This document shows, piece by piece, positions 2,094 to 60,846 of a DNA stretch of 64,000 bases; the stretch's first letter is position 1, and the number at the start of each line of letters is the position of its first letter. The translations under genes and the position numbers were made by a program. The DNA lies in IMG/VR virus record IMGVR_UViG_3300022701_000122, positions 62,001-126,000 of that record; one strand, 5' to 3'. The DNA comes from a virus. Below the pieces are notes generated by a model, which was not told the origin of the DNA, ran no database searches, and saw only the letters and a list, made by a program, of their open reading frames with translations.

Positions 2094-3527
2094 ATAGATT
2101 ATCTACTTTTAATCTAGCCACTAGCGATCATATCTAAATAGAATCACATCAGAATCTTAATCGTCGGGGCTATTCCGCTTAACAGAAGATTCTAATAAGA
2201 AAAAATTATGAATATATGGAGAGAGCGGATTTGTTTACTAAGTGATCAAGGACGGAACGGACTAAGATCACTTAGTAAACACTATATAAAAAGATTCTTG
2301 ATTAAGCCGTAGAAGATTCACACGACCGGTACTGATTCCATATGTTAAGTTATTATTTTACATATTAATATACGAAGTATATTCTATATAATTATTATAA
2401 CATATAATAGGTCTTGAAGCGTTTTAGAAACTGCGGTCTGTTTTGCAGTTTCTAAAACCGTTCGAGGGCCGGTTCTCGACCGATAGGGAGTCATCAATAA
2501 TCAAATTGATCTAAGAAGATTATATGTTCTATAAATTGAGCCATGAATGATTAAAACTGGTGATTATTTATTTATGATTATCTAAATTGATACACATTGA
2601 TGCAACATTAACTTATTAGATTAATTATTAAAATAAAATCAAGTTGATTCATATTGATAGTGAATTGATACAACATCTACATCCAACTCTTAATTTCTTA
2701 ATAACTTTCTATTAAGATCAATTTATCTCTTAAATAAGGTTAAATAACAAATTTTATAGTTCTTTAAGATTCTAATCATTTCTCCCTACCACTTCTCTAT
2801 TTATAAAAATCCGAAACACAATGATTCATTATTTCTGTTTTTTGGTAGGTTTTTAACTTTGCAGTTAACCTCTACTTACCCTAATTTGACTAATTTATTT
2901 ATCAATTCAAATGTTTAATATATCAAATATATAAATTTAATATATATCTATTGATAAATCATTTATTCAACTTTAAATTTAATTATTCATATTTTATTAA
3001 TCATTTAAATTTCTTTTATTAATAAGATATAAATTAATTAATTTAGATTTCTTTATCTTTATTTATTTTTCATTTATCAATTATTTTTTGGAATTTTGAA
3101 TCATTCATATATAATTCATGAATATATCAATATATGTCCGTTTCATTACGCCTGGGCTTCATGAAACGAGTAATAATATTTGACCTCAAATAGTTTTTCC
3201 ATTTGAATCTTAAAAGAATCTAATTAGATAAATATAGATTCTTTTTTCTTAGTATCTAAGAAAGAATTAATATTAGATTTTTAAAATCTAATATGAAAGA
3301 TTCTAAAATGTTTTAAATTAATCTATATAGATTCATTCTATAATCTAAGTAGATTAATAATGAACTGTATATGTTGTTAACATGGAATTAGTAGATTGTA
3401 CATGTGACATAATCATATTCTAAGAATATGTCCGAGCAATTTTTGGGTCAAGTCGGTACTTTTAAGAAGATATTTTGAAAATTGGAATAGCTGCTGCTAT
3501 GTGGACAAACGGTAGTCATAATGACCT
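2094..3527 (+). ncRNA. Long non-coding region rich in strong inverted repeats; candidate large structured RNA
   Basis: No credible gene is found on either strand. Perfect or near-perfect hairpins are frequent: 2233-2247 pairs with 2266-2280 (15 bp, 18-nt loop); 2421-2434 with 2445-2458 (14 bp); 2367-2373 with 2377-2383 around GAA; TCGAG 2462-2466 with 2475-2479; 2844-2880 (bulged stem); 3139-3146 with 3161-3168 (8 bp); 3245-3252 with 3256-3263; 3270-3281 with 3283-3294; 3414-3420 with 3424-3430. A long-range pairing GAATCT/TAATC (2153-2162) with GATTA...AGATTC (from 2300) would enclose the first hairpin. The part 2100-2500 is less AT-rich than the rest. The strand is assumed from neighbours. 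Alternatives are a replication origin (2880-3120 is almost pure A/T) or several small RNAs. Confidence 0.5.
3503..3519 (+). promoter_or_regulatory. GGACAAA motif (first of three near 3.5 kb)
   Basis: GGACAAAC followed by GGTAGTCAT. This is the weakest of the three matches here to the window-wide motif, because the downstream AAAT block is missing. It lies at the right end of the structured non-coding region. Confidence 0.3.
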
Positions 3528-3551
3528 ATGTATTGTTTATGGGTTGGAGGA

Positions 3552-3568
3552 GGACAAAATTTAAACAT
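3552..3568 (+). promoter_or_regulatory. GGACAAA motif (second of three near 3.5 kb)
   Basis: GGACAAAATTTAAACAT matches the window-wide pattern GGACAAA-N4-AA. It lies about 196 nt before the gene starting at 3748. It could be a promoter, but a purine-rich GGAGGAGG run overlaps it. Confidence 0.4.
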
Positions 3569-3649
3569 GTTAACTGGTTTAGAAATAAAATCTAAAAAGT
3601 TTAATAATTTATTAAATTTTTTAAAGTGTGGTACTGAAAAACTTATAGC

Positions 3650-3666
3650 GGACAAATTTATGATTA
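3650..3666 (+). promoter_or_regulatory. Candidate phage promoter upstream of 3748
   Basis: The sequence ATAGCGGACAAATTTATG carries the extended form ATAGC-GGACAAA also seen at 30608 and, as GTAGC, at 7728. It lies 98 nt before the start of the next large gene. The 75-codon frame that spans it (3528-3755) is not believed to be coding. Confidence 0.5.
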
Positions 3667-3747
3667 AAAGATTTCATTCTTTTATTAAATCTTATATGAT
3701 TTTATTTTATTTATTATTACATATTATTAAAAAGGGGATTAATACGT

Positions 3748-5847
3748 ATGAATAGAAATGGAGAAACATATTGGCTAAGTAAACCTTCATACACCTACTT
3801 AGATCCAAATCAATCTATATCATTAAATATAAGTTTTGCTTCATCTCTTAATGTTTCAGAGAAAGATGAGAATCAATATTTTAATTACTCAACAACTAAA
3901 CTAAGATTTACTCTTATTGATAATAGAACTGCTGGCAATCCAAGAATAAATATTGATCTCGAATATAATCATTTAACTTCATTATTATGTGATTTACATG
4001 AATTGAGCAGTAACAATTATAAAAATGCTTTTATGCAATCTTCTCAATTAAACATTTCAAGAGTATATTCTAAGAATAAAAAAGATCTGACATTCAGATT
4101 TATATTAATGGAGAATAAACCAGTTCTTGAATTAATAATTACTGATCCGATAGCAAATATGAATCAATGTAGAATATTGATGAATGGTAAATCTTTTAAA
4201 AATATGGTTAGATTTTTGAAAAATACTCGTGATGATTTTAGTAATATAGATACTAATATATCAAATATATTATTTAATCAATATCATAGTAAATCATTAT
4301 TGGGATCTATAAATGGAAGATTATTTAATATTGAAACATTGTTATCACGATTTTCTTCAGTTATGTCATCTAAAATAGATTCTATAAAGTCACAACCAGT
4401 TACTACTAATATGAAAATGTCTGATGAAAAAACAGATGAAATAATTAAGTCAACTGATGCGAATCATGTGTTTGAAGGTCCATTTAATGATGATGTTGAA
4501 TCAAATGATGATGATTATAATGGTGTAGATTATACACAAAAATTTACAGATATAAGTCAAGCATCTAATATGTTTAATAATGTTAATCTGGATGGAGAAA
4601 ATGAATTAGAAAAAATAGAACGTAAACACAATAATGATATGGAAAATAGAAGTAGCATACCATTTATATATAAAATATTTGATGGTGAATTGATGAATTT
4701 TAATTCATGGGTTATGTCATTTACATCAACTATTGAATCTTCAGACACTATAACATTCTCACCATTAGATGTAATATTCGATATATCAAATAATGCTCAG
4801 ATATTTAAAACATTCGATGATAAAAATTCTTATTATTTTTCTCAATATATAATGACATATCTCATTAAAACAAAAATAAAAGAATTTATAGAGCATAATG
4901 GTCAAATTGATATTCGTATTCCAATAATAAGATTTGATAATATTGTATATTCAAAAGAATCATATCTATACAATTTATGTATAGAGTTAACATCTACATT
5001 TTTGTTATATTCATTATTTATAAGAAGACTTGATGCATTAAATAATGTTCCAAATAAAAATAATTATAAGATAATTAATACTGCTATAAAGATTCTATTT
5101 AGTCCATTTATTTTTTCTCTCGATTATGAAAATGAATCAAAATTAATATTGGAGAATGTATTTGACCAATTTAAGAATTTTAATAAAAATGGGATAGTTA
5201 AATTATTTGAAGATAAGTATTCATCCATGACTGGGGGAAACTTAAATATAACTGAAGATTTATATTATGGTTATTCTAAATCATTTATAACTAACGTGAT
5301 TAATATGATTAAAACTGGTTATTCTATAAATAAAAATGATTTAATAAGATTGGCTTCAGATTATGATATACCATATTCAGATTTTTCAAAAATTAAAGAT
5401 ATTGAAAGTGTAAAGAGCAATATAGTTAATAATCTTATTAATAAGTATGATGAAGTTTCTAATATTGATGAAGATGACGATGTTCCATTTGATGCTCGAA
5501 ATGATTTAAATCAAACAATTAATACTTCAGATAAAGATGATAAATTAACATTATTTTTAGAATGTATTGAAAATATAAATGATGGTGATTTATATAATCA
5601 ATTTAAAACATTTAATACATTTAATGAAGTAGTTAATGATTTTATGAATCATGATATTCCTCCAGAAGTATTTAAGATAAGAAGAGCGATTGAAATGAAT
5701 AATAATTTATCAACCAAACTTGAAGTTTTTAAATTTGCTAAATTAATAAAAGAAGATTCTAACATTACAGAAGTATCTGACGGCAATGATAATTATAATG
5801 ATTTTGATGGTGTAGATCCTACTTCAGTCATAGATAATATAATGTAA
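3748..5847 (+). CDS. Unknown 699-residue protein
   Basis: The start follows the strong ribosome binding site AAAAGGGG. The N-terminal 160 or so residues are beta-rich (for example KLRFTLIDNRTAG and LTFRFILMENKPVLELIITD). The middle (about 200-300) is acidic and low-complexity (NDDVESNDDDYNGVD), probably a flexible linker, and the rest is mostly helical with an acidic patch near residue 575 (DEDDDVPFDARND). No catalytic motif was recognised. It is followed directly by a smaller gene with a similarly basic, beta-rich N-terminus, so the two may act together. Linker plus two folded parts would suit a DNA-associated or virion scaffold protein, but this is only a guess. Confidence 0.75.
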   Translation: MNRNGETYWLSKPSYTYLDPNQSISLNISFASSLNVSEKDENQYFNYSTTKLRFTLIDNRTAGNPRINIDLEYNHLTSLLCDLHELSSNNYKNAFMQSSQLNISRVYSKNKKDLTFRFILMENKPVLELIITDPIANMNQCRILMNGKSFKNMVRFLKNTRDDFSNIDTNISNILFNQYHSKSLLGSINGRLFNIETLLSRFSSVMSSKIDSIKSQPVTTNMKMSDEKTDEIIKSTDANHVFEGPFNDDVESNDDDYNGVDYTQKFTDISQASNMFNNVNLDGENELEKIERKHNNDMENRSSIPFIYKIFDGELMNFNSWVMSFTSTIESSDTITFSPLDVIFDISNNAQIFKTFDDKNSYYFSQYIMTYLIKTKIKEFIEHNGQIDIRIPIIRFDNIVYSKESYLYNLCIELTSTFLLYSLFIRRLDALNNVPNKNNYKIINTAIKILFSPFIFSLDYENESKLILENVFDQFKNFNKNGIVKLFEDKYSSMTGGNLNITEDLYYGYSKSFITNVINMIKTGYSINKNDLIRLASDYDIPYSDFSKIKDIESVKSNIVNNLINKYDEVSNIDEDDDVPFDARNDLNQTINTSDKDDKLTLFLECIENINDGDLYNQFKTFNTFNEVVNDFMNHDIPPEVFKIRRAIEMNNNLSTKLEVFKFAKLIKEDSNITEVSDGNDNYNDFDGVDPTSVIDNIM

Positions 5848-7762: not shown

Positions 7763-8752
7763 ATGGCGGGAGAATTAGAGCGTACTTATTTATGGGTAGA
7801 GAAATATAGACCAAGAGAAATAGAAGATATGGTATTACCGGATGATTATGTTAAAACTTTTAATAGATATATAGAAGAAGAGCAAATACCACATCTTTTA
7901 TTTTATGGGCCACCAGGATCTGGAAAAACAACACTTGCTCTTATCTTATTATCAAAAGTAATAAAAGATAGAGCAGATGTATTAAAATTAAATGGTAGTT
8001 CGTCAACTGGTGTAGATATCATGAGAACAACTGTTGATGAATTTTTTAGAACTCCTACATTGGGTGGTTCGAAAGTTAAAGTTGTTTTTATAGATGAGGC
8101 AGATTATTTATCATTAAATGCACAGGCGGCATTAAGAGGAATATTTGAAAAATATCAAAGTCATGGGAGATTTTTATTTACTTGTAATTATAAATATAAA
8201 TTAATCGATCCATTACAATCTCGTTTTGGAACATCTTATGTTTTTTCTCGAATGTCGAAAGAATATATATTTGAAAATTGCGTTAATATATTAAAATCTG
8301 AAAATGTTACATATAATGATAATACGATTAAACGAATTATATCAATAAATTATCCAGATATAAGAAAGATAATATACAGCATTCAAAATCTTGTCGATGA
8401 AAATAATGTTTTAAATTCAAATATAAATGCAATAGCATCAAATGAGAAAAAATTTAGATCTTTTATAAGTGAATTATTTACTGGTCTTGAATCTAAGAAT
8501 GGACAAATAATTGGTAATTCTATAACAAAAATGAGAAAATTGGTTAGTGAGCAAGAACTTGATTATAATATGTTGTACGAAGAATTATTTGAAGATGATT
8601 CTGAAAATATACCAGTATGGGCGAAGATAATTATTAATAAATATGCAAATGATCATAATCAAGCTATGATTCCACCTATGCATTTTATGGCTATGGTATA
8701 TGAAATTGTTAAAGTAAAATCTGAATTTGATAAGCTTAATTTTAGAATCTAA
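7763..8752 (+). CDS. Sliding-clamp loader ATPase (RFC small subunit / T4 gp44-like)
   Basis: 329 residues, the size of T4 gp44. The N-terminus LWVEKYRPREIEDMVLP is the classical RFC box; Walker A is GPPGSGKTT (about residues 49-57), Walker B with DEAD-like acid is VVFIDEAD, sensor 1 is FLFTCNYKYK, and QSRFGT stands where RFC proteins carry the SRC arginine-finger motif. It would load a sliding clamp on primed DNA using ATP. No clamp gene is seen in the window. The gene is followed by two very small genes and the primase, forming a replication operon behind a GGACAAA promoter motif. Confidence 0.93.
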   Translation: MAGELERTYLWVEKYRPREIEDMVLPDDYVKTFNRYIEEEQIPHLLFYGPPGSGKTTLALILLSKVIKDRADVLKLNGSSSTGVDIMRTTVDEFFRTPTLGGSKVKVVFIDEADYLSLNAQAALRGIFEKYQSHGRFLFTCNYKYKLIDPLQSRFGTSYVFSRMSKEYIFENCVNILKSENVTYNDNTIKRIISINYPDIRKIIYSIQNLVDENNVLNSNINAIASNEKKFRSFISELFTGLESKNGQIIGNSITKMRKLVSEQELDYNMLYEELFEDDSENIPVWAKIIINKYANDHNQAMIPPMHFMAMVYEIVKVKSEFDKLNFRI

Positions 8753-9172: not shown

Positions 9173-10219
9173 ATGATTGATTTTCAAAGATTGGAGAATA
9201 CATTAAAAACAAAAACGGGATTATCTTATTATAACAGTAACAGAACAGAATTAATATGTAGATGTCCTTGGTGCGAACTTCAATCAATTAAAAACCATGG
9301 ACATCTATATATACAAGTTCCAATGAATAAAGATCAATTGCCGATGTTTATATGTTTTAAATGCGGTGATGATTCTCGATATGGTAGGGGTACATTATTG
9401 AAATTATTGAGATTTATTGGTGAAGATGTACGACAATATGTATCTAAAGATATATTAGACAGATTTAAATGCAGATTACTTAGATATGATTATCACACCA
9501 AATCTTTTAAAATACATAATTATAATGTTAAAAAAATAGATAATAGTGATCGATATATTTTAAAGAAAAGTTACTTAAAATATAGATTGGGGTTTGATTA
9601 TATTATAGAAAATATACCTGGTCTTATATTTGATATAAGAGATTTTGTTACAAGTAACAAAATTGATTTAGGAGATAAATATAGATTTCTTGATTGGTTT
9701 GAAGATTCATTTATTGGATTTATATCAACGAGGGGCAGTACATTACTATTAAGAAATATAGATGCTACGTCCAAGTTTAGATATTTTAAATTTGATCTTA
9801 ATCCATCTGATTATTTCAGAGATTTTTATGCTATAAAAACAAATAATCTAAAAAAGAATGTAAATACGATTGTTTTATGTGAAGGAATATTTGATTTATT
9901 GGTATCTATAAAGGATTATGGCATGAAAGAAGTTTTAGATAAATCTTGTATATGGGCATCTATACTTGGTAAACATTTTGAAAGTGTTATTCCATCTATA
10001 CTATCATATACAAAACTTTCGGTTGCTAACTTTATAATATTATCCGATAAAACAAAAACTAATAAAAATTACAAATGGTTTAGAAATAATGTATCAGTTA
10101 ATAGTTTAGAAGTCTATTGGAATAAGAATAGAAAAGATTTTGGTGAAAAACCAATTTTTCCTGTTAAAACTGTTATAGATAATCCATTTAAGAATAATGT
10201 TGCATGGAACAGGAGATAG
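9173..10219 (+). CDS. DNA primase, DnaG/T4 gp61-like (zinc finger plus Toprim)
   Basis: 348 residues. An N-terminal zinc-binding module is visible with cysteine pairs at residues 31/34 (CPWC) and 61/64 (CFKC), about the spacing in DnaG-type primases. The Toprim domain begins at about residue 230 with NTIVLCEGIFDLLVSI, where the Glu of 'CEG' is the metal-binding acid. Further on, IILSDKTKTN occupies the place of the second acidic Toprim motif but with a single Asp, so the usual DxD is not evident. There is no helicase domain, so a separate replicative helicase is expected elsewhere. Its place behind the clamp loader supports a replication role. Confidence 0.85.
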   Translation: MIDFQRLENTLKTKTGLSYYNSNRTELICRCPWCELQSIKNHGHLYIQVPMNKDQLPMFICFKCGDDSRYGRGTLLKLLRFIGEDVRQYVSKDILDRFKCRLLRYDYHTKSFKIHNYNVKKIDNSDRYILKKSYLKYRLGFDYIIENIPGLIFDIRDFVTSNKIDLGDKYRFLDWFEDSFIGFISTRGSTLLLRNIDATSKFRYFKFDLNPSDYFRDFYAIKTNNLKKNVNTIVLCEGIFDLLVSIKDYGMKEVLDKSCIWASILGKHFESVIPSILSYTKLSVANFIILSDKTKTNKNYKWFRNNVSVNSLEVYWNKNRKDFGEKPIFPVKTVIDNPFKNNVAWNRR

Positions 10220-14281: not shown

Positions 14282-17200
14282 ATGCCTGTATTTAGGAAAA
14301 TATATTTAAAAACAAAAGTTTCCGGTGAAGTAGTTGAAACTGATCTTAAAAAACGAGAATCTGCGTTTGATGACGAAACAAAGTCTTGGTATGTAAAAGA
14401 TTATCAAGGCGTCATGCATAAATTTTCCAGTATAGATGATGGTGTTATATCTGCCCATAGAACTTGGTCTTCTGACAAAATATTATCAGAATTAAATGAA
14501 TACAGTCTTCCGAATAGATGGTTGGAAGGAACAACTGTCCCGCCATCTACATTGGGGTCTGAAGGTAATCATTATATAAATACAATAACAAAAGATGTTT
14601 ATAAGAAAAAAACTATTCCAATAGGTGGAGTTGATAGTTTCACCACATTAATGATTCATAGTGATTCGGTTGATGGGAATCAAGAATTTGAAGATTCAAG
14701 TCAAAGTGATCATGATATTACATTTTTTGGAAGTGTTGAACATAGTAATGATCAAAAAGTATTTGGTGATACAAGTATAAAATTTAATGGTGATCAAGCT
14801 ATATCAGGATTAAAAATTGAACATTCTGATGATTTCTCATTTGATGAATATGAGTTCTCAATAGATTTCAGAATAAGATTCGAACAATTAAATAATACTC
14901 AAGTATTATTTTCCAGAAAGAAAGAGAATGTATCTGATTTTTGGAAATTAGAATATGATAATGTAAATCATCATTTAGAATTTACACATGATACAGTTGA
15001 TACTGGAAGTATTGGTATTGTTGGAAGTATAATATTTGAAGTTGATACTTGGTATCATATTGCAATTGTTGGTGAGATTGATGAAATTAGTGGTGATAGA
15101 GTATTTAGATTAATTGTTGATGGTGTTCTTATTTCATCTTCAATATATGACACTTTTGATTATTTTTATGGTCCATTATATATTGGATCTTATGATGAAA
15201 ATACAAGTGATTCATTCGTTGGATGGATGGATGAAATAAGAATATCATCTGGAATTGCAAGAGATTTTATAGATGATGTTCCAACTGAAGTTTATACTGT
15301 ACCAGATGGATCTACTACATTAGATTCATGGTGGTTACTTGGTAATATTAGAGATAATAATCGATTTACGAGTCTTGTCGATTTACCAAATGATTATACC
15401 AATCAATCGGGTAAAATTCTCATAGTAAATGAAACAGAAGATGGATTAAGATTTGAAAGTTTTAACCCGAATGGCGTATACGAATTTGTTGATCTTACGG
15501 ATACTCCTTCCACATACGCTGGTCAAGCAAATAGACTCGTAGCTGTTGCTGGTGATGAATCTGGTCTTGAATTTGTTGATCGATCTTCTTCTGGTATAAA
15601 ATTTATTGAATTATCTGATGTTCCAACCAGTTATGCTCAATCAAGATATAAAGTACCAAGAGTAAACTATAATCAAAATGGTCTTGAATTTGTTGATGAT
15701 ATTCGTAATCTTATAGATTTATCTGATGTTAATGCTTCTAATTATACTGGTGATCGCCATAAAATATTAAGAGTTAATTCAAGTGAGTCTGGTGTTGAAT
15801 TTGCTGAACCTACTGTAATGCAACAGTTGTTAATTATAGACAGCAGGGCAGACCTTCCAGCTACAGCAGATGTTGGTACACTTGTCGTTGCCAGTGGTCC
15901 AACTGGTGATGGTAACATGTATGTATTTATTGGATGGTATACGAGAGATGGTTATCAAACACCAACGTATGAAAATAAATGGTTAGTAAAATCTGGAAAT
16001 AGATATGAAGCAACATCTGTATTTCCAAGTACATCAACATATATTATTCCTATTGGAACAAGATTATTTAGTGAAGACGATGGTACATGGTTTATATATA
16101 CTGGTTCTGAATGGATTGATACGAAAGAAGATTTAGCTCCAGCTACTGCCACAAATCTTGGTGGAATAAAAGTAGGTGATAGATTAACTGTTGAACAAGA
16201 TGGAACATTAAATGCTGATTTACAATCATCATATAATTTTGATTATAATTATAAATATAAATTAGATAATATACAAGCTAATGCAAATAATTATGTTCAT
16301 CCATCTACTCACCCTGCTGTAATCATCGAAGAAGATACAACACATAGATTTGTAACCGATGCTCAAATATTAGCATGGAATGCTGCTTCGGGTGAATTTG
16401 TTCCAGCTACAGAGACAACACTTGGTGTTATTAAAGTAGGAGATCGATTATCAGTTGAAGTTGATGGAACATTAAATGCTGATTTACAATCTGATGAGAA
16501 TTTTACAACTGCTCTGAAAAATAAATTAGAAGGAATGGCTCCTTCTGGTTTATCTCCAGCTACAATTGCTGATCTTGGTGGAATTATTGTTGGTGAAAGA
16601 TTATCAGTTGAAGTTGATGGAACATTAAGTGCAAATGTTCAATCAGATAATAATTTCACAGATGCATTAAAAAATAAATTGGATGGTGTTGATGATAGTG
16701 CCAATTATTATGTACACCCATCAACCCATTCAGCATCCATGATAACAACATCGACATCAAGAAGATTTGTTACAGATGCACAGATAGCGTTATGGACTGC
16801 TGGTGGAAGTGTTGAATGGGATAATATAACGAGTAAACCATCTGTTTTTCCGCCAGATACACATTATCATGATTTTGTTGATTTAACTGATTCTCCAGCA
16901 AATTATACTGGTCAAGCTGGAAAAATATTACAAGTTAATTCTGGAGAAGATGGATTAGAATTTATAGATAATCCAGGTTCAGTTGATGATGGTGATTGGT
17001 CAAGTGCAGATAGTCCTCCCGGTAATTGGTCAGATACACATAATCATGGTGTTACGTTTGATGCAGTTGTATCAACAACTTCTGTGAATTCTACATTTAG
17101 ATATGTAATTCCATCATCTGAGTTATCGACTTCTGGAACATCGATACGACTGAAGTTTCAAAGTATTGAAGGTTATACTTTATATGTATATAAATGCTAT

Positions 17201-20200
17201 GTTGGTCATGCATCTCAAACAGTTGGAGCAGATACATTTGATTTCGATGGAAATCAAGTTCAAATGTCTGTTAATGAAGAGACATCATTTTATATTACAA
17301 ACGGTGAAACTGTAACTACAGATATTGAAACATTTACATTAGATCCAACTCGAAATTTAATAGTTGCAATGTATGTTGCAGATTTTGGGCATTTATCAAA
17401 ATCTTCATTAACTGGAAATTGTTCATATTATTTTAAGAATGGTGATTATTCTTATCAGACAGATGTTGCAAGTGGAGGATGGGTACAATCTTCAAATATA
17501 TATGCATTTATAAGTGAGATAGAAGTTAAAACCAGTGATACTGGATCAGATGGTGATTATTATCTCGATACTGGAACTGGTGATATATATAAAAAAATAA
17601 CTGGTGTTTGGACTAAACAAGGAAATATACGGGGTCCAAGGGGATTAAAGGGAGATGATGGTGATGCTGGTTCGACAACATTTATTGGATTAACTGATGT
17701 TCCAAGTAGTTATTCGACTTATGCGAATAAGCGAGTAACTGTTAATGCAACTGCCGATGGCTTAGTATTTTCAGATAAATATGAACATCCATCAACCCAT
17801 CCAGCTACAATAATCACTCAAGATACAACTCATCGATTTATAACAGATGCAGAAAGAATAGCATGGAATGCTGCGGCATCAGGAAGCATACCACCAGCAA
17901 CAACTTCCACAATTGGAGGTATTATAGTTGGAGATAGATTAACGGTTGCTATAGATGGTACTTTAGATGCAGATGTTCAAACAGATAATAATTTTACAGA
18001 TGCATTAAAATCTAAATTAGATGGTATAGCTTCTGGTGCAAATAATTATACTCACCCTGTCACTCATCCACCATCAATCATTGCAGAAGATTCAAATAAT
18101 AGATTTGTAACGGATGCACAGATTGCACAATGGAATTCTGGATCTGCTACAAATTTTACTGATTTGTCTGATACTCCTGCTAATTATAGTGGTCATAGTC
18201 AAAAATTGGTTAGAGTAAATGCTGGAGAGACAGCATTAGAATTCGTTGATTCTACCGCTGGTGGTGGGAGTGGAGTTGATGAATTTATCGAATTAACCGA
18301 TACGCCTGGATCATTTACAGCAAATAAATATCTTAAAGTTAATGCTGGTGCTACGGCATTAGAGTTTGTAGATGAACCAAGTGGAGTTGATACATTTTTA
18401 GGTCTAACTGATTCTCCGGGTTCATTTTCTGGTCATGGTTTAAAAGTGGTTAGAGTGAATAGTGGTGCAAATGCTTTAGAATTTAATACACCAACATTTC
18501 TTGATTTGAATGATACACCAGGATCATTTATTGCCAACAGATACGTTAAAGTTAATTCTGCTGGTAATGCGTTAGAATTTACAGATTCTACCGCTGGTGG
18601 TTCTGATGTTGATGAGTTTTTAGAACTGATTGATGCACCATCAAGCTATTCTGGTCAATCTTTAAAGTTAATAAGAGTTAATGCTGGAGAAACTGGAGTT
18701 GAATTTACAGATCCATATACTCACCCTGCCACTCATCCACCGTCTATAATTGCTGAAGATACAAATGATAGATTTGTATCAGATTCACAAATATCAACAT
18801 GGGATGGTAAACCAGATAATTTTCTTGAACTTCCTGATACTCCAAGTTCATTTTCTGGTCAATCTGGTAAGAATATACGAGTAAAGTCAACAGAAGATGG
18901 TTTAGAATTCTATGATTCAACTGCTGGTAGTGGATCTGGAGCAGATACATTCATAGAATTAACAGATACACCTGTTTCATTCTCTGGAAATGAAGGATAT
19001 GTTGTTAGGGTGAATGAATCTGGTACAGCATTGGAATTCTTTGATTCAACCACTGATTTTACTGGATATGATGAATTCATAGAATTAGCAGATACACCGA
19101 GTTCTTTTATTGGACAAGGTAGTAAAATATTATATGTTGCTGATAATGAATTATCTGTCGATTTTAAAGATCCAACATTTATTGATTTAACAGATACTCC
19201 TGCTTCTTATCCTGAAGCTGCTGGAACATGGGCGAGAAGAATAGATATTACTATAAATAGTTTACTTGTTGATGAAGATTTAACAGATTTTCCAATCATG
19301 TTGGATCTTACAAATCATACAGAAATATTCAGTATAATATCTGATTCAGATAAATTGAAGATGTCTGCAAGAGTATATGATTCAACTTCTGATTCTGAGA
19401 CAGAATGTTATGTTGAAATTGATCATTATGATAGCACATCTAATACTGGAATATTATGGGTAAAAGTTCCAAATGTATCATCAACAGAAGATACTGTTTT
19501 GAGATTATATTATGATGATACACAATTGGATAATACTACATATGTTGGTGTTACCGAATCAGTTGCTGCTCAAAATGTATGGGATAGTAATTATATAGGT
19601 GTATGGCATTTAAATGCTGAAGATCCATCAGTAACGGATAGTGTTAAAGATTCAACTCAAAATAACAATGATGGCAATACACCAACTTCAAATAAACCAA
19701 CTCTTGTTGATACAGATCGACTTGGAAAAGGTTATGAATTTTATAGTCATTATGGTTCAGATGCACCAAGAATAGCATGTGATTGTGTTGGTATAACTAA
19801 TACAAAGTATACTGTTGAAATAACAGCTAAACCCGTTGTTACTGCTGTGAATGATGGTCTTTGGTGTATAAGTGATGGTAATAGTGAGTCTGCAAGAAAT
19901 GATCTTAGAATTTATGATGGGGATATGGATAATAGGGTAACTACAGTTACAATTATGGGATACCCTATGCCAGATGCTGGTCAATGGCATACATTTGGTA
20001 CAACATGGGATTTTGATGGTAATTCATTTGTATCTTATTTAGATGGCGCTATTGTTGATACATCTTCAAGTACACGATCAGCGGCAGGAGGACTTGATAC
20101 TTTTTCAATTGGTGCATGGAATTATTATGGTTCATGGAACACTGAAGCAACTGTTATTTCAGATGTGAGATTATCAAATGGTGTACGATCATATGCTTGG

Positions 20201-23200
20201 ATGAAAGCATCTGCTTATAATAGTAATGATGGATTAGTATCATTTGCTGAGAATGTTACTCTATTTAATCCTCAAGTTGTTCTTGCAAATAATAGTGGTG
20301 TTACATTTGAAGAAATAGATAATTTCCTAAATTTATATCAACTTATAGATACTCCAAATAGTTATACTGGTCAATCTGGAAAAGTATTATCGGTTAAATC
20401 GACAGAAGATGGAATTGAATTTACAACTCCAACTGTAACTGATGAATTCTTAGATTTGACGGATACACCGAGTACATACAGTGGATCAGAAGGTTATAAT
20501 GTAAGAGTTAATCAATCTGGAACTGCTCTTGAATTTTACGATTCTACGTCCGATGGTGGATCTGGTGTTGATGAATTCATAGAATTGATAGATACTCCGT
20601 CTACATTTTCCGGTCAATCTGGAAAATCAATAAGAGTCAATCAAACTGAAAATGGATTAGAATTCTATGATTCAACAACCGATTTTACTGGATATGATGA
20701 ATTTGTTGAATTAATAGATACTCCATCAAGTTATTCAGGACAAGCTGGTAAGAATATACGTGTTAATCAAACAGAAACTGCTTTAGAGTTTTATGATTCA
20801 ACTGCTGATTTCAGCAGTTATGATGAATTTGTTGAATTAACAGATACGCCATCATCATTTTCTGGTCATGGTTTAAAGGTAGTACGTGTAAATATTGATG
20901 AAGATGCTCTTGAATTTTATGATTCTACAGCAAGTGATGTTGATGAATTCATAGAACTTATTGATACACCATCTTCATATAGTGGTAATGAATTAAAATC
21001 TATAAGAGTTAATCAATTTGGAACAGCATTAGAATTCTACGATTCAACTGCGAGTGGAGGATCTGGTGTTGATGAATTTATTGAATTAATTGATACTCCG
21101 TCAAGTTATTCTGGATATGAACGATATAATGTACGAGTTAATAATGACGGTACTGGATTAGAATTTTATGATTCAACAACAGATTTTACTGGATACGATG
21201 AATTCTTAGAGTTAACAGATACACCAAGTACATATTTTGGTCAGAGTGGTAAATATCTTATTGTTAATCCAGGTGAAACTGCTATTACATTTACAGATTC
21301 TGCTGGTGGTGATGGGGGAGCAAGTGATTTCTTAGATCTAACAGATACTCCTTCTGAATACCCATTATCTGGTAATTGGTCAAATCGTTATACGATGACC
21401 ATTGATTCATCTAATATAGATGCAGATCTTATCGATTTTCCAATTCGTATAGATCTAAGTAATATGACAGATGTTTTTTCTGAATTATCCGATGCAGATA
21501 AATTAAAAATGTCAGTAAGACATTATGATAGTACGAGTAGTGAGACTGAGTGCTATACTGAAATAGAATCTTACAACTCTTCTGCTCAAACTGGCGTATT
21601 ATGGTCAAAGATTCCATCTATATCTTCATCTCAAGATACAACCATATATTTATACTTTGATAAGACACGATCAGACAATAGTACATATATCGGTGTACTT
21701 GGGTCAACACCAGCACAAACAGTATGGTCAAATGATTTCGGTGCAGTTTACCATATGAATCAAGATCCATCACAGGCCGGTGGTGATGAAATAAAAGATT
21801 CTACTGTGAATGCTAATCATGGTTCTTGTATTGGTGGTGATGTTTTGACTTCTGTTTCTACTACATATTGTGATACAGGTGTTCAATTTGTTGGTGGGGG
21901 TAATACTTCATCAATAGGTGCAATCCAGATTTCTAGTCCATTGAATGTTAATAAAAATGTTGGTACTCATCAAGCAACAATGAAGACTGGATCTTCATGG
22001 GATACGATAATTTGTAACTATTATTCATCTACAAGTAGTGAATATGATAGATTTTATCAAGGTGTTAATTCATCTGGTGACCAGTTTTTTGTTACAGATA
22101 GACTTAATAATGTAGATGGTAATTCATTATTAACATCTAACCATTGGTATAATGTAGCTTGTACATTTGATTTTGATAATGATAATTATGAATTTTTTTA
22201 TAGTGGTGTATCTAATGGAGCGTTTACTCCTAATTATAATGCACCATCTACATTATTAGGTTATATGATAGGATCTATGTTGGTTGGTGTTGGTGGTTGG
22301 TTTAGAGTTGGTGATGCTACTTTTGCAGAACTTAAAATCTCTAATGTTGTGAGATCAGATGCATGGATAAAAGCAACTTATTTAAGTGATTATGATCAGT
22401 TAATAACTTATGGTACATCTGAATCAATAAATACAAATATTATAATTGTATCTGGTGATGGTCTTGTATTTGAAACAAAAGATGATTTTATGGATTTTGT
22501 TGATTTACGAGATACTCCAAATGATTATACAGGTCAGGCAGGAAAGAATATACGAGTAAATTCTGGTGAAACTGGATTAGAGTTTTATGATGCTACTTCT
22601 GGTGGTGAAAGTGGAGTTGATGAATTCATAGAGTTGATAGATACTCCGAGTTCATTTATAGGTCAAACAGGAAAACATTTGGTTGTAAATGGATCAGAAA
22701 CTGCTCTTGAATTTGCAACTGTAACAGATACGGGTGTCACTACATTTTTAGAATTAACTGATACTCCCTCTGGATACCCATCATCTGGATATGGTCGGCG
22801 TGTTACTATAACTCTTTCATATACATATATCGATGACGATCTTACCGATTTTCCAGTAATGATCAATTTATCAACTTATACAGATATATTTTCTGAATTA
22901 TCTGACGATGATAAATTAAAAATGTCAGTTTGCCAATATGATTCTACAAATGGAGAAGTTGAATGTTACACAGAAATACAATCTTACAATAGTAGTGCAC
23001 AAACAGGAATATTATGGGTAAAAGTTCCTCACGTTTCATCGACAGAAAATACAATTATTAGAATATATTATGATTCAACAGCCAGTAATAATACATCATA
23101 CGTTGGTACTACAACTTCTTCGGCTGCTCAAAATGTTTGGGATGATGATTATATTATCGTTTATCACTTTGAAGAAAATCCAATATCAGGTAGCGATATT

Positions 23201-26200
23201 ATAAAGGATTCAACTCAATATTTGAATCATGGTAGTCCCAATGTATCTTTAACACATACAGAAATGAGTGGTACGCCTGATCTTGATTATGCTGTTCAAA
23301 ATGCATCATCTGGTGATCGTAAAATTGAAATGGGTACTAGTAATTTTGATAAAGGGTTGTTCACACTTGAGACTATAACAAGAATTGATGATGCTTCTTC
23401 TAAATATCCCGGTTTATTATTGTTACATACAGACGATGATAATAAATTACATTTTTATGAACAAGGCCCAAATAATAAATTAAGATTCACAACTGCTGTT
23501 GGTGGTTCGGGTGAAACTATATTTGAATACGACAGAGTTGATGATGATGCATGGCATTTTTATGGATTAAAGGCGGATTTTGATAATGATGAATATTCTT
23601 TATGGGAAGATAATACTGAGGTAGCAACATCGTCATCAACACATACTGAACTTACGGCTTTAGGTACTCCTTATATTGGTCCATCTTATTTTTCTAGTAA
23701 TTGGTATTCTGGTAATTATATTATTGGTGAATATAGAGTTTCAAAGATTGCAAGAAGTGATGCTTGGATAAAAGCTTCGTATTATAGTACATATGATAGT
23801 TTATTAACATTTGGTGGAGAAGAAATTGTTTCAACAAGTATTGCAACAGTATCTGGTAATTCTATAATATTTACAGATAAAGTTAATTTTATAGATTTTA
23901 TAGAACTTGGAGATACACCATCTGTATATACTGGTCAATCAGGAAAGAATATAAGAGTAAAATCGTCAGAAGATGGATTAGAATTCTATGATTCAACAAC
24001 AGATTTTGCTGGATACGATGAATTTATTGAATTAACAGATACACCATCGAGTTATTCAGGACAAGCTGGTAAAGTAGCAACTGTTAATGAATCAGAAACA
24101 GCATTGGAATTTTTAACATCATCTTCTGGAGGAATTCAATGGTATGATGATGTTGGTGATATTCCTTATGATTTAACATCATATTATTTAAATGAGACAA
24201 CTGGTGATATTACAAAATATGAAAGTACTGCTGGATGGTTGGGTACTTGGGCTAAACGTATCGAAATAACTGTTGATAATACCAATATTGATAGTGATTT
24301 AACACATTTTCCGATACCAATCGTATTGGGATCATCTGTTGGTGGATCTTCTCAAGATATAACAGATATATTCGATGAAGTTGGTTCAAGTTGGCAAAAG
24401 ATTGCGGTAACTAAATCTGATGGAACTACTCAATTATATGTTGAAAAAGAAGTATGGGATTCTGGTACTGAAAATGCATTATTATGGGTATCCAAATCTG
24501 ACTTAACACTTAGTTCATCGACCACGACTACATTATATTTATATTTTGATTCATCACAAGGAAATAATACCACCTATGTTGCTGATCCTGGAAACAGAAC
24601 AGAAGTATGGGATTCAAATTTTGTTGCTCGTTATGGTATGACTGAAGATCCATCAATTGGAAATATTTTAGATTCTACAATTAATAGTTATGATTGTGTC
24701 CCAAATGGTTCTATGACAAGCGGAGATCTTGTAGATGGACCATTAGGTAAATCCATTAATTTTGATGGTTCTAATGATTATGCAAAATCTTCTGCTCAAA
24801 ATTTATCTTCTTTAGAGAGTTCATTTACAGTTGAGGCATATATAAAATGGGTATCTTTAAATGCGGCGTGGGATAGAATATGTCAAATAGGTGGAGATTC
24901 TAATGGTGCTATTTTAATGGCAAGAAGCAATACTACATCATATCTTACTAATAGTGTGTGGGGTGATGATGTAGCTACTACGTTAGGGACTGACGTAGGA
25001 AATTACCATTATGTTTTTCAAACATTTAATGGCACAACAGCATATATGCATAGGGATCTTACCGAAGATCCAGCAACTAATGGTGTTACTGTATCTTCAA
25101 AATCAAGTGCCAGTATAATTATCGCGGGAGGAAATTCTGGAACATATAATGGAAATGTTGAAATAGATGAATTCAGAGTTTCTAACATTGAGAGATCTGA
25201 TGTATGGTTAAAAGCAAATTACTATGCTCTTACTGATGATTTATTATCATATGGTTCAGTTGAAAATAATATAGTATCTGTAGGAACAGTTAAACCATCT
25301 TGGTTGGATTTAATAGATACACCATCTGTATATACAGATCAAGCCGGTAAAAGTGTAAGAGTTAATCAGTCTGAAAATGGTTTAGAATTCTATGATTCTA
25401 CTTCTGGTGGTGAAAGTGGAGTTGATGAATTCATAGAGTTGATAGATACTCCGAGTTCATTTATAGGTCAAGCAGGAAAATACGCTGTAGTTAATCAAGC
25501 AGAGACAGCATTAGAGTTTGTAGATTCAACTGCTGGTGGTGATGGATCTAGTGTTGATGAATTCATTGAATTAATTGATACCCCGAGTTCATTTATAGGT
25601 CAAGGTGAAAAAGTAGTTTCTGTAAATGTTGGTGAAACAGCATTAGAATTTACAACAATTAATTCTGGTGTATCTGCATTTACAGAATTAACCGATACAC
25701 CATCAAGTTTACCAGATTCATTTTCGTGGGCAAAGAGAGTTGAATTAACTATAAGTCCAACTTATATAGATTCTGATTTAACAAATTTTCCAGTTACAAT
25801 TAATTTATCAGATTATACTGATATATTTAGTGAATTAAGTGATACTGATAAATTAAAAATATCTGTAACATATACTGATTCAACATCAAGTGAGACTGAA
25901 TGTTATGTTGAAGTTTCTGAATTTGATGAAACTAATCAGCGAGGTTTCCTATATGTAAAAGTTCCAACCGTATCATCTTCTGAAAATACGACTTTATATT
26001 TATATTATGATTCAAATCAATCAAATAATACTACATATGTTGGTATAACTGGATCTGATGCTGCTAAAAATGTATGGGATGATGATTATGTAATAGTTTA
26101 TCATATGGAGGAGGAACCAAATGCTGGATCAGATATTATAAAAGATTCTACTCAATATTCAAACCACGGTAGTCCTTCTCATAATCAGATACAAGTTGAT

Positions 26201-28309
26201 ACTGCTGATGGTACGCCTGATGTCGGAAATTCTGTTAAAATAGATAGATCTGTTTCAAGTGCAAGTAGAATTACGATGGGTAATTCTAATTTTAATAAAG
26301 ATACATTTACTCTCGAAGCAACATGTAGATTGGATAATTATCCAAGTAGATATCCCAGTCTTTTGACAATGACCAATAATAATAATAATAACAGGATGCA
26401 ACTTGGTCTCAATGATTCTAATCATATTAGACTGAATAATGTATTAAGTGGTTCAAATAATGCTATACTCGATGCTGCAAGAACCGATGATGATACATGG
26501 CATCATTATGCGTATAAAGTAGATTTTAATAATGATGAATACGAATTGTTTGAAGATAGTGTATCTGTTGATAGTAATACTTCATCATATTCACCGCAAT
26601 CATCAGTAACTACTCTTACTATGGGTGCTATTTATTATAGTGGTTATCAAAATGGTCATGCCACAGTTGGTGAATATCGTGTATCAAAAATAGTAAGATC
26701 AGATGCTTGGTTAAAAGCTACTTATCATACAATATACAATAATATAATAACATTTGGATCAGAAGAATTATCAGAAATACAATTGGTTACTGCATCATCA
26801 TCAGGTCTGACATTTACAAGTTCGTCTTCATATATATCATCAGAAAAAATAGTAACAACTCCAGATGATGAATTAACAGACAATGCTGGAAAAATAGCAA
26901 TTGTTAATCCTGGAGAAACAGCATTCAGTCTTACTAATGATTATGTAAAAGCAACAGATTTAGATATGAATGGATTTGAAAACAGAACTGATAGCACGTT
27001 AACATGGACTGATTCAACTCCAGACAGAACTCTTTCAATTCAACCAACTGGAACAAGTTTTAACTATTGGGTTAATGGTGTTAAATATACATCAACTGGT
27101 GATACTAAACAGATAACTAATACAGAAGGAATATGGATATTTTATTATGATTCAAATGGATTACAGGCAATAAATAGCCCAACCTCTGCACAAGTAGATA
27201 CTGCAATTAGAAATTATGCAATTGCATGTGTTGTATATTGGAATGCAACTGATGAAGAAGCGATATTTGTTGGTGAAGAAAGACATGGTATACATATGTC
27301 TCCAGATACTCATGCGTATTTACATTTTACAGAAGGAGCGAGATATTTATATGGATTAGGTCTTGTTGATATAGATGCTGATCAAGATGGTTCTCTTGAT
27401 TCACATGCTCAATTTGGAGTAGATGCTGGTGCTATATCTGATGAAGATATTTATCATAATATAAGTGCTATTGATTCAACTGCCGGTATTCCGATATATT
27501 ACATGCTTGGATCTGAAGCACGATGGGTTAGGTATAATAAGACAGGATTTGCTGTGAGAACATATGATGGTACAAATTCTACAAGATTAGCTTATAATCA
27601 ATATACGGGGGGATCATGGCAATTGACTGAAGTTGGACATACTGATTATGTACTTTATCATATATTTGCAACTACAGGAAAAGATAATCCAATTATATCA
27701 ATAATGGGTCAAAATAATTACAATAATATACATGATGCCCGAGATGGTGCTTTAAGTGAAATTAGAAATATTGAATTGGTTGAATTATTATTTCCAGAAA
27801 TAAAAGTGTTAGCAACAGTTATATTTTATACAGCCGATTCTTTAGGAAATTCTGTAAATGCAGATATAGTAACTAATGAAGATGGTGATGATTATGTGGA
27901 TTGGAGGAATGAAAGGGTAGGTAGGGTTGAAGTAACCACAAGTGATCACGGTTCATTAAGTGGTTTAATAGACGATGATCATACACAATACACATTATTG
28001 GATGGTAGAGATGGTGATATATTAAAAATAGATGAGGTTAGAGCATATGATGGTGCTGGATTAAAATTAAACGATGATTCTGGAACAAGTGGTATATTTA
28101 TAGAAGATGGTGGTGAAGTTGGATTTGGTACAAATTCCCCAACTGCTGCTATTGATGTCGATTCAGATAAGATTAGAGTAAGAACATCTAAAACTCCAGC
28201 AACATCTGGTGCTGCTGGTAATGCTGGTGATATATGTTGGGATACTAATTATGTATATATATGTGTTGCAACAAACACATGGAAACGTGCCGCAATATCT
28301 ACGTGGTAA
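14282..28309 (+). CDS. Giant modular tail fibre / adhesin (4,675 aa)
   Basis: One uninterrupted frame of 14 kb behind AAAAGGG. Order of parts: an N-terminal attachment region; a LamG/concanavalin-like lectin domain (about residues 120-330, ending DEIRISSGIARDF); then roughly thirty copies of a short repeat, typically 'FIELTDTPSSYSGQ-GK-VRVN-ETALEFYDST'; collagen-like GPRGLKGDDGDAG near residue 1120; 'HPSTHPA..I...RFVTDAQI' repeats; and five longer modules of DUF2341-like plus lectin-like type, starting near residues 1646, 2363, 2836, 3320 and 3814. The C-terminus (LSGLIDDDHTQYTLLDGRDG and GFGTNSPTAAIDV) resembles known phage tail-fibre ends. It probably binds host surface polysaccharide. It is far longer than T4 gp37, and the protein is probably trimeric and exposed on the particle. 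Confidence 0.88.
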   Translation: MPVFRKIYLKTKVSGEVVETDLKKRESAFDDETKSWYVKDYQGVMHKFSSIDDGVISAHRTWSSDKILSELNEYSLPNRWLEGTTVPPSTLGSEGNHYINTITKDVYKKKTIPIGGVDSFTTLMIHSDSVDGNQEFEDSSQSDHDITFFGSVEHSNDQKVFGDTSIKFNGDQAISGLKIEHSDDFSFDEYEFSIDFRIRFEQLNNTQVLFSRKKENVSDFWKLEYDNVNHHLEFTHDTVDTGSIGIVGSIIFEVDTWYHIAIVGEIDEISGDRVFRLIVDGVLISSSIYDTFDYFYGPLYIGSYDENTSDSFVGWMDEIRISSGIARDFIDDVPTEVYTVPDGSTTLDSWWLLGNIRDNNRFTSLVDLPNDYTNQSGKILIVNETEDGLRFESFNPNGVYEFVDLTDTPSTYAGQANRLVAVAGDESGLEFVDRSSSGIKFIELSDVPTSYAQSRYKVPRVNYNQNGLEFVDDIRNLIDLSDVNASNYTGDRHKILRVNSSESGVEFAEPTVMQQLLIIDSRADLPATADVGTLVVASGPTGDGNMYVFIGWYTRDGYQTPTYENKWLVKSGNRYEATSVFPSTSTYIIPIGTRLFSEDDGTWFIYTGSEWIDTKEDLAPATATNLGGIKVGDRLTVEQDGTLNADLQSSYNFDYNYKYKLDNIQANANNYVHPSTHPAVIIEEDTTHRFVTDAQILAWNAASGEFVPATETTLGVIKVGDRLSVEVDGTLNADLQSDENFTTALKNKLEGMAPSGLSPATIADLGGIIVGERLSVEVDGTLSANVQSDNNFTDALKNKLDGVDDSANYYVHPSTHSASMITTSTSRRFVTDAQIALWTAGGSVEWDNITSKPSVFPPDTHYHDFVDLTDSPANYTGQAGKILQVNSGEDGLEFIDNPGSVDDGDWSSADSPPGNWSDTHNHGVTFDAVVSTTSVNSTFRYVIPSSELSTSGTSIRLKFQSIEGYTLYVYKCYVGHASQTVGADTFDFDGNQVQMSVNEETSFYITNGETVTTDIETFTLDPTRNLIVAMYVADFGHLSKSSLTGNCSYYFKNGDYSYQTDVASGGWVQSSNIYAFISEIEVKTSDTGSDGDYYLDTGTGDIYKKITGVWTKQGNIRGPRGLKGDDGDAGSTTFIGLTDVPSSYSTYANKRVTVNATADGLVFSDKYEHPSTHPATIITQDTTHRFITDAERIAWNAAASGSIPPATTSTIGGIIVGDRLTVAIDGTLDADVQTDNNFTDALKSKLDGIASGANNYTHPVTHPPSIIAEDSNNRFVTDAQIAQWNSGSATNFTDLSDTPANYSGHSQKLVRVNAGETALEFVDSTAGGGSGVDEFIELTDTPGSFTANKYLKVNAGATALEFVDEPSGVDTFLGLTDSPGSFSGHGLKVVRVNSGANALEFNTPTFLDLNDTPGSFIANRYVKVNSAGNALEFTDSTAGGSDVDEFLELIDAPSSYSGQSLKLIRVNAGETGVEFTDPYTHPATHPPSIIAEDTNDRFVSDSQISTWDGKPDNFLELPDTPSSFSGQSGKNIRVKSTEDGLEFYDSTAGSGSGADTFIELTDTPVSFSGNEGYVVRVNESGTALEFFDSTTDFTGYDEFIELADTPSSFIGQGSKILYVADNELSVDFKDPTFIDLTDTPASYPEAAGTWARRIDITINSLLVDEDLTDFPIMLDLTNHTEIFSIISDSDKLKMSARVYDSTSDSETECYVEIDHYDSTSNTGILWVKVPNVSSTEDTVLRLYYDDTQLDNTTYVGVTESVAAQNVWDSNYIGVWHLNAEDPSVTDSVKDSTQNNNDGNTPTSNKPTLVDTDRLGKGYEFYSHYGSDAPRIACDCVGITNTKYTVEITAKPVVTAVNDGLWCISDGNSESARNDLRIYDGDMDNRVTTVTIMGYPMPDAGQWHTFGTTWDFDGNSFVSYLDGAIVDTSSSTRSAAGGLDTFSIGAWNYYGSWNTEATVISDVRLSNGVRSYAWMKASAYNSNDGLVSFAENVTLFNPQVVLANNSGVTFEEIDNFLNLYQLIDTPNSYTGQSGKVLSVKSTEDGIEFTTPTVTDEFLDLTDTPSTYSGSEGYNVRVNQSGTALEFYDSTSDGGSGVDEFIELIDTPSTFSGQSGKSIRVNQTENGLEFYDSTTDFTGYDEFVELIDTPSSYSGQAGKNIRVNQTETALEFYDSTADFSSYDEFVELTDTPSSFSGHGLKVVRVNIDEDALEFYDSTASDVDEFIELIDTPSSYSGNELKSIRVNQFGTALEFYDSTASGGSGVDEFIELIDTPSSYSGYERYNVRVNNDGTGLEFYDSTTDFTGYDEFLELTDTPSTYFGQSGKYLIVNPGETAITFTDSAGGDGGASDFLDLTDTPSEYPLSGNWSNRYTMTIDSSNIDADLIDFPIRIDLSNMTDVFSELSDADKLKMSVRHYDSTSSETECYTEIESYNSSAQTGVLWSKIPSISSSQDTTIYLYFDKTRSDNSTYIGVLGSTPAQTVWSNDFGAVYHMNQDPSQAGGDEIKDSTVNANHGSCIGGDVLTSVSTTYCDTGVQFVGGGNTSSIGAIQISSPLNVNKNVGTHQATMKTGSSWDTIICNYYSSTSSEYDRFYQGVNSSGDQFFVTDRLNNVDGNSLLTSNHWYNVACTFDFDNDNYEFFYSGVSNGAFTPNYNAPSTLLGYMIGSMLVGVGGWFRVGDATFAELKISNVVRSDAWIKATYLSDYDQLITYGTSESINTNIIIVSGDGLVFETKDDFMDFVDLRDTPNDYTGQAGKNIRVNSGETGLEFYDATSGGESGVDEFIELIDTPSSFIGQTGKHLVVNGSETALEFATVTDTGVTTFLELTDTPSGYPSSGYGRRVTITLSYTYIDDDLTDFPVMINLSTYTDIFSELSDDDKLKMSVCQYDSTNGEVECYTEIQSYNSSAQTGILWVKVPHVSSTENTIIRIYYDSTASNNTSYVGTTTSSAAQNVWDDDYIIVYHFEENPISGSDIIKDSTQYLNHGSPNVSLTHTEMSGTPDLDYAVQNASSGDRKIEMGTSNFDKGLFTLETITRIDDASSKYPGLLLLHTDDDNKLHFYEQGPNNKLRFTTAVGGSGETIFEYDRVDDDAWHFYGLKADFDNDEYSLWEDNTEVATSSSTHTELTALGTPYIGPSYFSSNWYSGNYIIGEYRVSKIARSDAWIKASYYSTYDSLLTFGGEEIVSTSIATVSGNSIIFTDKVNFIDFIELGDTPSVYTGQSGKNIRVKSSEDGLEFYDSTTDFAGYDEFIELTDTPSSYSGQAGKVATVNESETALEFLTSSSGGIQWYDDVGDIPYDLTSYYLNETTGDITKYESTAGWLGTWAKRIEITVDNTNIDSDLTHFPIPIVLGSSVGGSSQDITDIFDEVGSSWQKIAVTKSDGTTQLYVEKEVWDSGTENALLWVSKSDLTLSSSTTTTLYLYFDSSQGNNTTYVADPGNRTEVWDSNFVARYGMTEDPSIGNILDSTINSYDCVPNGSMTSGDLVDGPLGKSINFDGSNDYAKSSAQNLSSLESSFTVEAYIKWVSLNAAWDRICQIGGDSNGAILMARSNTTSYLTNSVWGDDVATTLGTDVGNYHYVFQTFNGTTAYMHRDLTEDPATNGVTVSSKSSASIIIAGGNSGTYNGNVEIDEFRVSNIERSDVWLKANYYALTDDLLSYGSVENNIVSVGTVKPSWLDLIDTPSVYTDQAGKSVRVNQSENGLEFYDSTSGGESGVDEFIELIDTPSSFIGQAGKYAVVNQAETALEFVDSTAGGDGSSVDEFIELIDTPSSFIGQGEKVVSVNVGETALEFTTINSGVSAFTELTDTPSSLPDSFSWAKRVELTISPTYIDSDLTNFPVTINLSDYTDIFSELSDTDKLKISVTYTDSTSSETECYVEVSEFDETNQRGFLYVKVPTVSSSENTTLYLYYDSNQSNNTTYVGITGSDAAKNVWDDDYVIVYHMEEEPNAGSDIIKDSTQYSNHGSPSHNQIQVDTADGTPDVGNSVKIDRSVSSASRITMGNSNFNKDTFTLEATCRLDNYPSRYPSLLTMTNNNNNNRMQLGLNDSNHIRLNNVLSGSNNAILDAARTDDDTWHHYAYKVDFNNDEYELFEDSVSVDSNTSSYSPQSSVTTLTMGAIYYSGYQNGHATVGEYRVSKIVRSDAWLKATYHTIYNNIITFGSEELSEIQLVTASSSGLTFTSSSSYISSEKIVTTPDDELTDNAGKIAIVNPGETAFSLTNDYVKATDLDMNGFENRTDSTLTWTDSTPDRTLSIQPTGTSFNYWVNGVKYTSTGDTKQITNTEGIWIFYYDSNGLQAINSPTSAQVDTAIRNYAIACVVYWNATDEEAIFVGEERHGIHMSPDTHAYLHFTEGARYLYGLGLVDIDADQDGSLDSHAQFGVDAGAISDEDIYHNISAIDSTAGIPIYYMLGSEARWVRYNKTGFAVRTYDGTNSTRLAYNQYTGGSWQLTEVGHTDYVLYHIFATTGKDNPIISIMGQNNYNNIHDARDGALSEIRNIELVELLFPEIKVLATVIFYTADSLGNSVNADIVTNEDGDDYVDWRNERVGRVEVTTSDHGSLSGLIDDDHTQYTLLDGRDGDILKIDEVRAYDGAGLKLNDDSGTSGIFIEDGGEVGFGTNSPTAAIDVDSDKIRVRTSKTPATSGAAGNAGDICWDTNYVYICVATNTWKRAAISTW
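22593..22666 (+). repeat. Exact 74-bp repeat, copy 1 (fibre gene)
   Basis: The segment from CTACTTCTGG to ATAGGTCAA is identical to 25398-25471, although the flanking sequence diverges. It encodes TSGGESGVDEFIEL and the following repeat start. Identity including synonymous sites points to recent duplication or gene conversion. Confidence 0.8.
25398..25471 (+). repeat. Exact 74-bp repeat, copy 2 (fibre gene)
   Basis: Identical to 22593-22666; the copies lie 2.8 kb apart and bracket one DUF2341/lectin module. They could recombine to delete or duplicate the segment in frame. Confidence 0.8.
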
Positions 28310-60764: not shown

Positions 60765-60846
60765 ATATATTAATATAATCTAAATAAAATAAGATAATAA
60801 TATATATAGTTACAACAACGCTATTTAAACAATGAGAGGTCTAAAT

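Follow-up and report, generated by a model that had tools for sequence, protein, structure and literature searches.

The window, the whole 64,000-nt stretch of DNA that was analysed, corresponds to positions 62001-126000 of a 182,757-nt virus contig (G000). A second assembly of 201,166 nt (G001) is of the same phage, sharing with the first an 84.3 kb overlap with two mismatches and a further 33.6 kb that are exact, and the two combined give a genome of approximately 265.8 kb, if circular, from an uncharacterised jumbo phage. The G+C-rich first 123 nt of the contig (G000:1-123, L010:1-123) were missing from the second assembly and are probably an assembly artefact. No open reading frame (ORF) of at least 60 aa was present between positions 2093 and 3528 of the window, and 2094-3527 was the largest inter-ORF gap both in G000 and in the remaining 83.2 kb of the genome, which bears out the 1.4 kb non-coding region described in an earlier sequence-only reading. 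The runner-up in G000 was a gap of 1087 nt containing two tRNAs. Both flanking genes are located on the + strand and encode a PfkB-family kinase on one side and a 699-aa protein on the other. The 75-aa ORF at 3528 is probably not a gene, or has its true start at 3567, and since a strong promoter-like site at 3552 lies within it the non-coding stretch probably extends to about 3566 or 3747. The features of the locus were as follows.

1176-2093, + strand: PfkB-family kinase gene, the 5' neighbour, at the place of a Rep-like gene in five relatives
2094-3566, no strand: whole non-coding region, the slot directly 5' of the gene with the predicted Whirly/PUR fold; no ORF, longest gap
2097-2318, no strand: predicted structured domain 1, a long closing stem enclosing three hairpins, drawn for the + strand
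2152-3334, either orientation: ten dispersed copies of AGATTC/GAATCT, at 2152, 2187, 2292, 2314, 2767, 3205, 3216, 3236, 3298 and 3329
2232-2281, no strand: perfect 16-bp hairpin with an 18-nt loop, AAGGACGGAACGGACTAA
2410-2470, no strand: long hairpin with a perfect 14-bp stem (2421-2458) and an interrupted extension outward
2471-2492, no strand: small hairpin adjoining the long hairpin
2561-3130, no strand: A/T-rich half, GC skew -0.31 and -0.38, opposite to the flanking + strand genes
2889-3131, no strand: candidate DNA unwinding element, comprising the lowest-GC windows of the contig
3139-3168, no strand: 8-bp hairpin, loop TACGCCTGGGCTTC
3200-3358, no strand: predicted structured domain 2, an A/T-rich branched structure enclosing three hairpins, followed by a further hairpin at 3317-3358
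3528-3755, + strand: 75-aa ORF without a family match, overlapping the promoter-like site
3552-3566, + strand: promoter-like motif GGACAAAATTTAAAC (17.9 bits), before the 699-aa gene
3650-3665, + strand: second promoter-like motif (13.4 bits)
3748-5847, + strand: conserved 699-aa protein with homologues by profile, its N-terminal 191 aa with a predicted Whirly/PUR-alpha fold
7763-8752, + strand: T4 gp44-like clamp loader, part of the adjoining replication module
9173-10219, + strand: DNA primase-like gene of the same replication module

Five perfect hairpins (arms of at least 9 nt, loops of 3-24 nt) were identified in the region compared to 0.56 +/- 0.70 in 300 dinucleotide shuffles (maximum 4), confirming that it is packed with strong hairpins as had been claimed, and of 125 windows of equal size along the contig just 2 contained as many. 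Arms of at least 12 nt occurred twice compared to 0.01 in the shuffles, none of which (0/300) held two such arms. The 467 nt at 2094-2560 folded with z scores of -6.7 as + strand RNA, -5.5 as - strand RNA and -4.9 as DNA, and the fold excess was concentrated in 2201-2550 and 3101-3350, including z scores of -3.6 (+) and -5.1 (-) for 3201-3350. The two best perfect stems measured 16 bp (2232-2281) and 14 bp (2421-2458), which corrects the 15 bp and 14 bp given in the sequence-only reading. A long-range helix suggested between 2169-2190 and 3470-3491 amounted to 8 perfect pairs in 22 nt at 73% and was unremarkable as one of 51 listed inverted pairs.

Origins in general feature an A/T-rich unwinding element, and the region contains the lowest-GC 200-nt window of the whole contig (2889-3088, 9.5%) and its lowest-GC 240-nt window (2892-3131, 10.8%). 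The second half had been described as almost pure A/T, which holds for the part at 2891-3130 (11% GC). The AGATTC/GAATCT hexamer was observed ten times compared to 1.5 expected (corrected P about 0.009), an excess that is not independent of the hairpins since several copies sit in hairpin arms. Tandem iterons, as found in iteron-type origins, were absent from 2094-3527.

A model of the full-length 699-aa protein was poor, and the N-terminal 191 aa (mean pLDDT 82) were used instead. Foldseek matched this domain to WHY1 (1.5e-4) and Pur-alpha (1.7e-4) with TM scores of about 0.4-0.5, and the best 20 PDB matches were all Whirly or PUR-alpha proteins, which are single-strand nucleic-acid binders. 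As the TM scores were only moderate, the model indicates a fold class rather than a function. Elsewhere in the window were a giant 4675-aa ORF (14282-28309), a PHROG 506 family transposase that is probably TnpB-like (29089-30249, E 1e-130) and a 927-aa RNA polymerase beta/beta'-like protein (60832-63615), for which PHROG gave the beta subunit and the best phage records beta'. A relative, G003, had a second stretch related to this polymerase protein, and the RNA polymerase gene of the relative (L009:9304-12327) seems to contain an intein-like insertion compared to the gene in the window. Two HNH/homing endonuclease-like genes of one PHROG family were observed at L011:2816-4693 (-) and L014:14562-16736 (+).

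Single-protein searches returned the same phage or distant pieces only, and alignments were needed to find relatives. An RNA polymerase beta' homologue was aligned with that of a distant relative, followed by the gp23-like major capsid protein, which led to many uncultured jumbo phages. The nearest relatives were 64-71% identical in the capsid protein and none was close at this locus, with clamp loader identities of at most about 44%. The sole capsid relatives among the genome_contigs (L212, L213 and L214) were located in metagenome-assembled genomes labelled as Thermoplasmatales, Woesearchaeota and Heimdallarchaeota archaea, a placement that may reflect either binning error or archaeal hosts.

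Homologues of the 699-aa protein formed one family in ten jumbo phages (G008, G016, G018, G019, G024, G028, G030, G033, G034 and L221), where homologues of the 208-aa and 401-aa proteins were mostly directly 3' of the Whirly-type gene. The cumulative GC-skew minimum was located 439-1505 nt 5' of the start of the Whirly-type gene in eight of these, on 120-277-kb contigs for G008, G016, G018 and G019 and on 18-36 kb segments for G028, G030, G033 and G034; L221 was the ninth, with a local skew minimum 1.5 kb 5' of the gene. The minima of the eight lie near a switch in gene direction and skew in this family largely follows gene direction, so that the skew by itself could reflect transcription. The GC-skew check suggested in the earlier reading gave minima at the slot in the relatives, but placed the minimum of this phage at G000:56102, which is 8.0 kb 5' of the region at a gene-strand switch.

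A protein family with members of 305/314 aa in G034 and G019, here termed Rep-like, was encoded just 5' of the Whirly-type gene in five relatives (G034, G018, G016, G019 and L221) and divergently in G030. Tandem arrays, each the strongest in the sequence examined, followed this gene and preceded the Whirly-type gene in G019 (20 nt x 4.7) and G034 (22 nt x 4.0). L221 was found after the layout had been inferred and by a profile built without it, and has an array of 22 nt x 2.8 between the Rep-like gene (E 5e-30) and the Whirly-type gene. The three arrays have different repeat sequences. The Rep-like family had no convincing match in Pfam, PHROG, NCBIfam or the PDB, and since it matches no known family its putative role comes from its genomic setting together with a weak winged-helix match (E 0.057). 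By analogy, a Rep-like gene, an array and a Whirly-type gene together are the layout of an iteron-type replicon. The satellite PLE has an experimentally demonstrated RepA/iteron origin with a non-coding region of RepA-bound repeats (PMC7145576), to which the array adjoining the Rep-like gene and the skew minimum in the relatives would be comparable, although the Rep-like protein fell into none of the known Rep families. Like theta-plasmid iteron origins and the RepA_N satellite PLE (PMC7145576), the region in this phage is non-coding and carries repeats, but it lacks a Rep gene and tandem iterons; a profile search of the phage's own approximately 266 kb returned no homologue of the Rep-like gene, the putative counterpart of the initiator gene of an iteron-type origin.

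Other relatives varied at the slot. G028 has a 1470-nt gap of 17-19% GC without a Rep-like gene or an excess of strong hairpins, G033 has two strong hairpins, and G024, in which the module is arranged like that of this phage, has coding-looking sequence. The lowest-GC tract of the segment was at the slot in G028 and G034 also. Gaps of 767 nt in G008 and 613 nt in G016 look partly coding and were excluded from the non-coding evidence. Repeated GGTTCTTAGGGATATCGAGCGCTAATATAT units with hairpins were observed directly 5' of the Whirly-type gene at L128:18868-19224 (G008:118868-119224). The slots were alike in position and composition, with sequence conserved between no two lineages. An inversion is likely since the relatives are divergent at the slot and the flanks in this phage are co-directional, and inversion of a G008-like block (slot, 699-, 208- and 401-aa genes) would yield the gene order of this phage with the region as the slot.

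The sequence-only reading had favoured a large ornate RNA of the GOLLD or ROOL type, of which the fold was borne out. The region shares with these RNAs that it is a long, phage-borne, hairpin-rich non-coding sequence (PMC12286853), but this region, known from DNA sequence alone, had no covariance-model match or homologues. It had no match in Rfam at the gathering threshold and, up to E 10, three unrelated chance-level matches only, in agreement with the earlier remark that it could not be matched to GOLLD or ROOL (nor, in our search, to OLE); on the remainder of the genome and the slots of relatives Rfam identified only tRNAs, located elsewhere. GOLLD and ROOL are often near tRNA islands, whereas the region has no adjoining tRNA array and the 64-kb window no tRNA, the nearest in G000 being approximately 53 kb away. 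The collection of homologues from related phages proposed earlier was run by DNA and by covariance models and gave none. Blastn against INPHARED phages found no match, and comparison with 31 related contigs found only short, mostly A/T-rich matches taken as chance. Single-sequence covariance models of the two domains (R1 and R2) found only the locus itself and opposite-strand palindromes in 1.3 Mb, mostly of relatives, a search low in power since each model was built from one sequence. An exact scan of IMG/VR for the loop sequences returned the same phage only, and no divergent homologue for covariation was found, the second assembly being identical here. A 9-mer, CGGAACGGA, common to a hairpin loop of the region and one of G018 is probably a chance match, as it occurs once only and, with respect to the Whirly-type gene, points the other way in G018.

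A phage-specific promoter-like motif, GGACAAAYNNTAAA, was identified 5' of many genes, and its GGACAAA core occurred 16 times compared to 0.41 expected. Motif sites in the window were at 3552, 7728, 13856, 30608, 38889, 41464, 51479, 56884 and 60748, with others elsewhere in G000. The phage resembles AR9/PBS1 and phiKZ in its jumbo size, multisubunit RNA polymerase genes and phage-specific promoter motif, which as GACA-N5-TA is similar to the AR9 late promoter AACA-N6-TA (PMC7598289), although AR9/PBS1 are distant, the capsid protein being 22-24% identical to those of AR9/PBS1 and other matches. The only good sites at the locus, at 3552 and 3650, point out of the region towards the 699-aa gene, and a weight-matrix scan found no phage-class promoter directed into the region. 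Minus-strand GGACATA cores at 3139 and 3433 fell below the weight-matrix threshold and were dropped. Sigma-70-like sites in the region were no more frequent than expected by chance, and terminator-like sites were absent. From these sequence scans nothing shows that the region is transcribed.

These results make it unlikely, though this is the foremost of the alternatives, that transcription through the region produces a large structured RNA that belongs to a new non-coding family and has at least two multi-branched domains. The + strand folds better than the - strand (-6.7 compared to -5.5), the two multi-branch domains are closed and strong hairpins are commoner than in the slots of relatives. 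However, either strand folds in excess of chance and so does the DNA, which is what palindromic DNA would give, and searches for families, homologues, promoters and terminators were negative.

Somewhat more doubtful is an untranscribed spacer or regulatory island, in which an old divergent promoter region with protein-binding palindromes was left after rearrangement without an origin or RNA function. Divergent operons here in relatives compared to same-direction flanks in this phage would suit it, as would the promoter-like motifs at 3552 and 3650. A useless spacer of 1.4 kb is nevertheless unexpected since the next gap, of 1087 nt, bears tRNAs, and the hairpins are perfect without decay and accompanied by the most A/T-rich tract of the contig. 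It is improbable that the region encodes a giant structured RNA of a new, lineage-specific kind that acts at the origin, for example as a primer or protein scaffold, in replacement of the Rep/iteron system of the relatives. A decayed gene, such as a lost Rep-like gene of the kind occupying this place in five relatives, is very improbable, given stops in all frames of every part of the region and best E values of 0.28 and 0.19 for its six-frame translation against the Rep-like and 699-aa profiles.

We consider, with a probability of about 0.6, that the region is a derived replication origin region of this approximately 266-kb jumbo phage. This reading is favoured because the region occupies the slot where relatives carry a putative plasmid-like origin, and comparison of the sequences makes an origin more likely than a giant RNA for 2094-3527, both being predictions as yet. 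A replication origin had been named as an alternative in the sequence-only reading and is the better supported explanation, because the region corresponds in position to an iteron-bearing skew minimum of relatives and includes the lowest-GC tract of the contig. The confinement of promoter-like sites to the downstream edge of the region also counts for it, as do its rank as the longest gap, the ten AGATTC copies, the predicted Whirly/PUR fold of the adjoining gene product and the 1470-nt gap at the slot of G028. The lack of a Rep-like homologue and tandem iterons, the distance of 8.0 kb to the skew minimum of this phage, the unconserved slot sequence, the coding-looking slot of G024, the absence of any known family for the Rep-like protein and the coincidence of the relatives' skew minima with divergent transcription count against it.

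In relatives the slot, in several beside a clamp-loader/primase module, has the skew minimum and, in several, what would be a plasmid-like replicon, and in this phage it is the 1.43-kb stretch, where hairpins and dispersed repeats lie on either side of an extreme A/T tract. Binding of a protein to these hairpins or repeats may open the tract at 2889-3131, and the Whirly/PUR protein could then keep hold of the exposed single strands. Assembly of the primase, clamp loader and T4-type polymerase of the phage would follow at the opened tract. T4 origins such as oriE and oriF use promoters and R-loops. The phage is like T4 in having genes for a gp44-like clamp loader, a DnaB-like helicase and a T4/cyanophage-like DNA polymerase as well as an A/T-rich non-coding element, but unlike oriE and oriF no promoter into the region was found.

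To our knowledge, little mapping of replication origins has been done for jumbo phages that encode a multisubunit RNA polymerase of their own. If the origin reading is correct, an uncultured family would have retained a plasmid-like replicon of a Rep-like gene, iterons and a Whirly/PUR-fold gene at one slot despite complete sequence turnover, and one lineage would have replaced it by a hairpin and A/T-rich element. Origins could then be predicted in many uncultured jumbo phages, and a candidate for a new family of initiators would be at hand.
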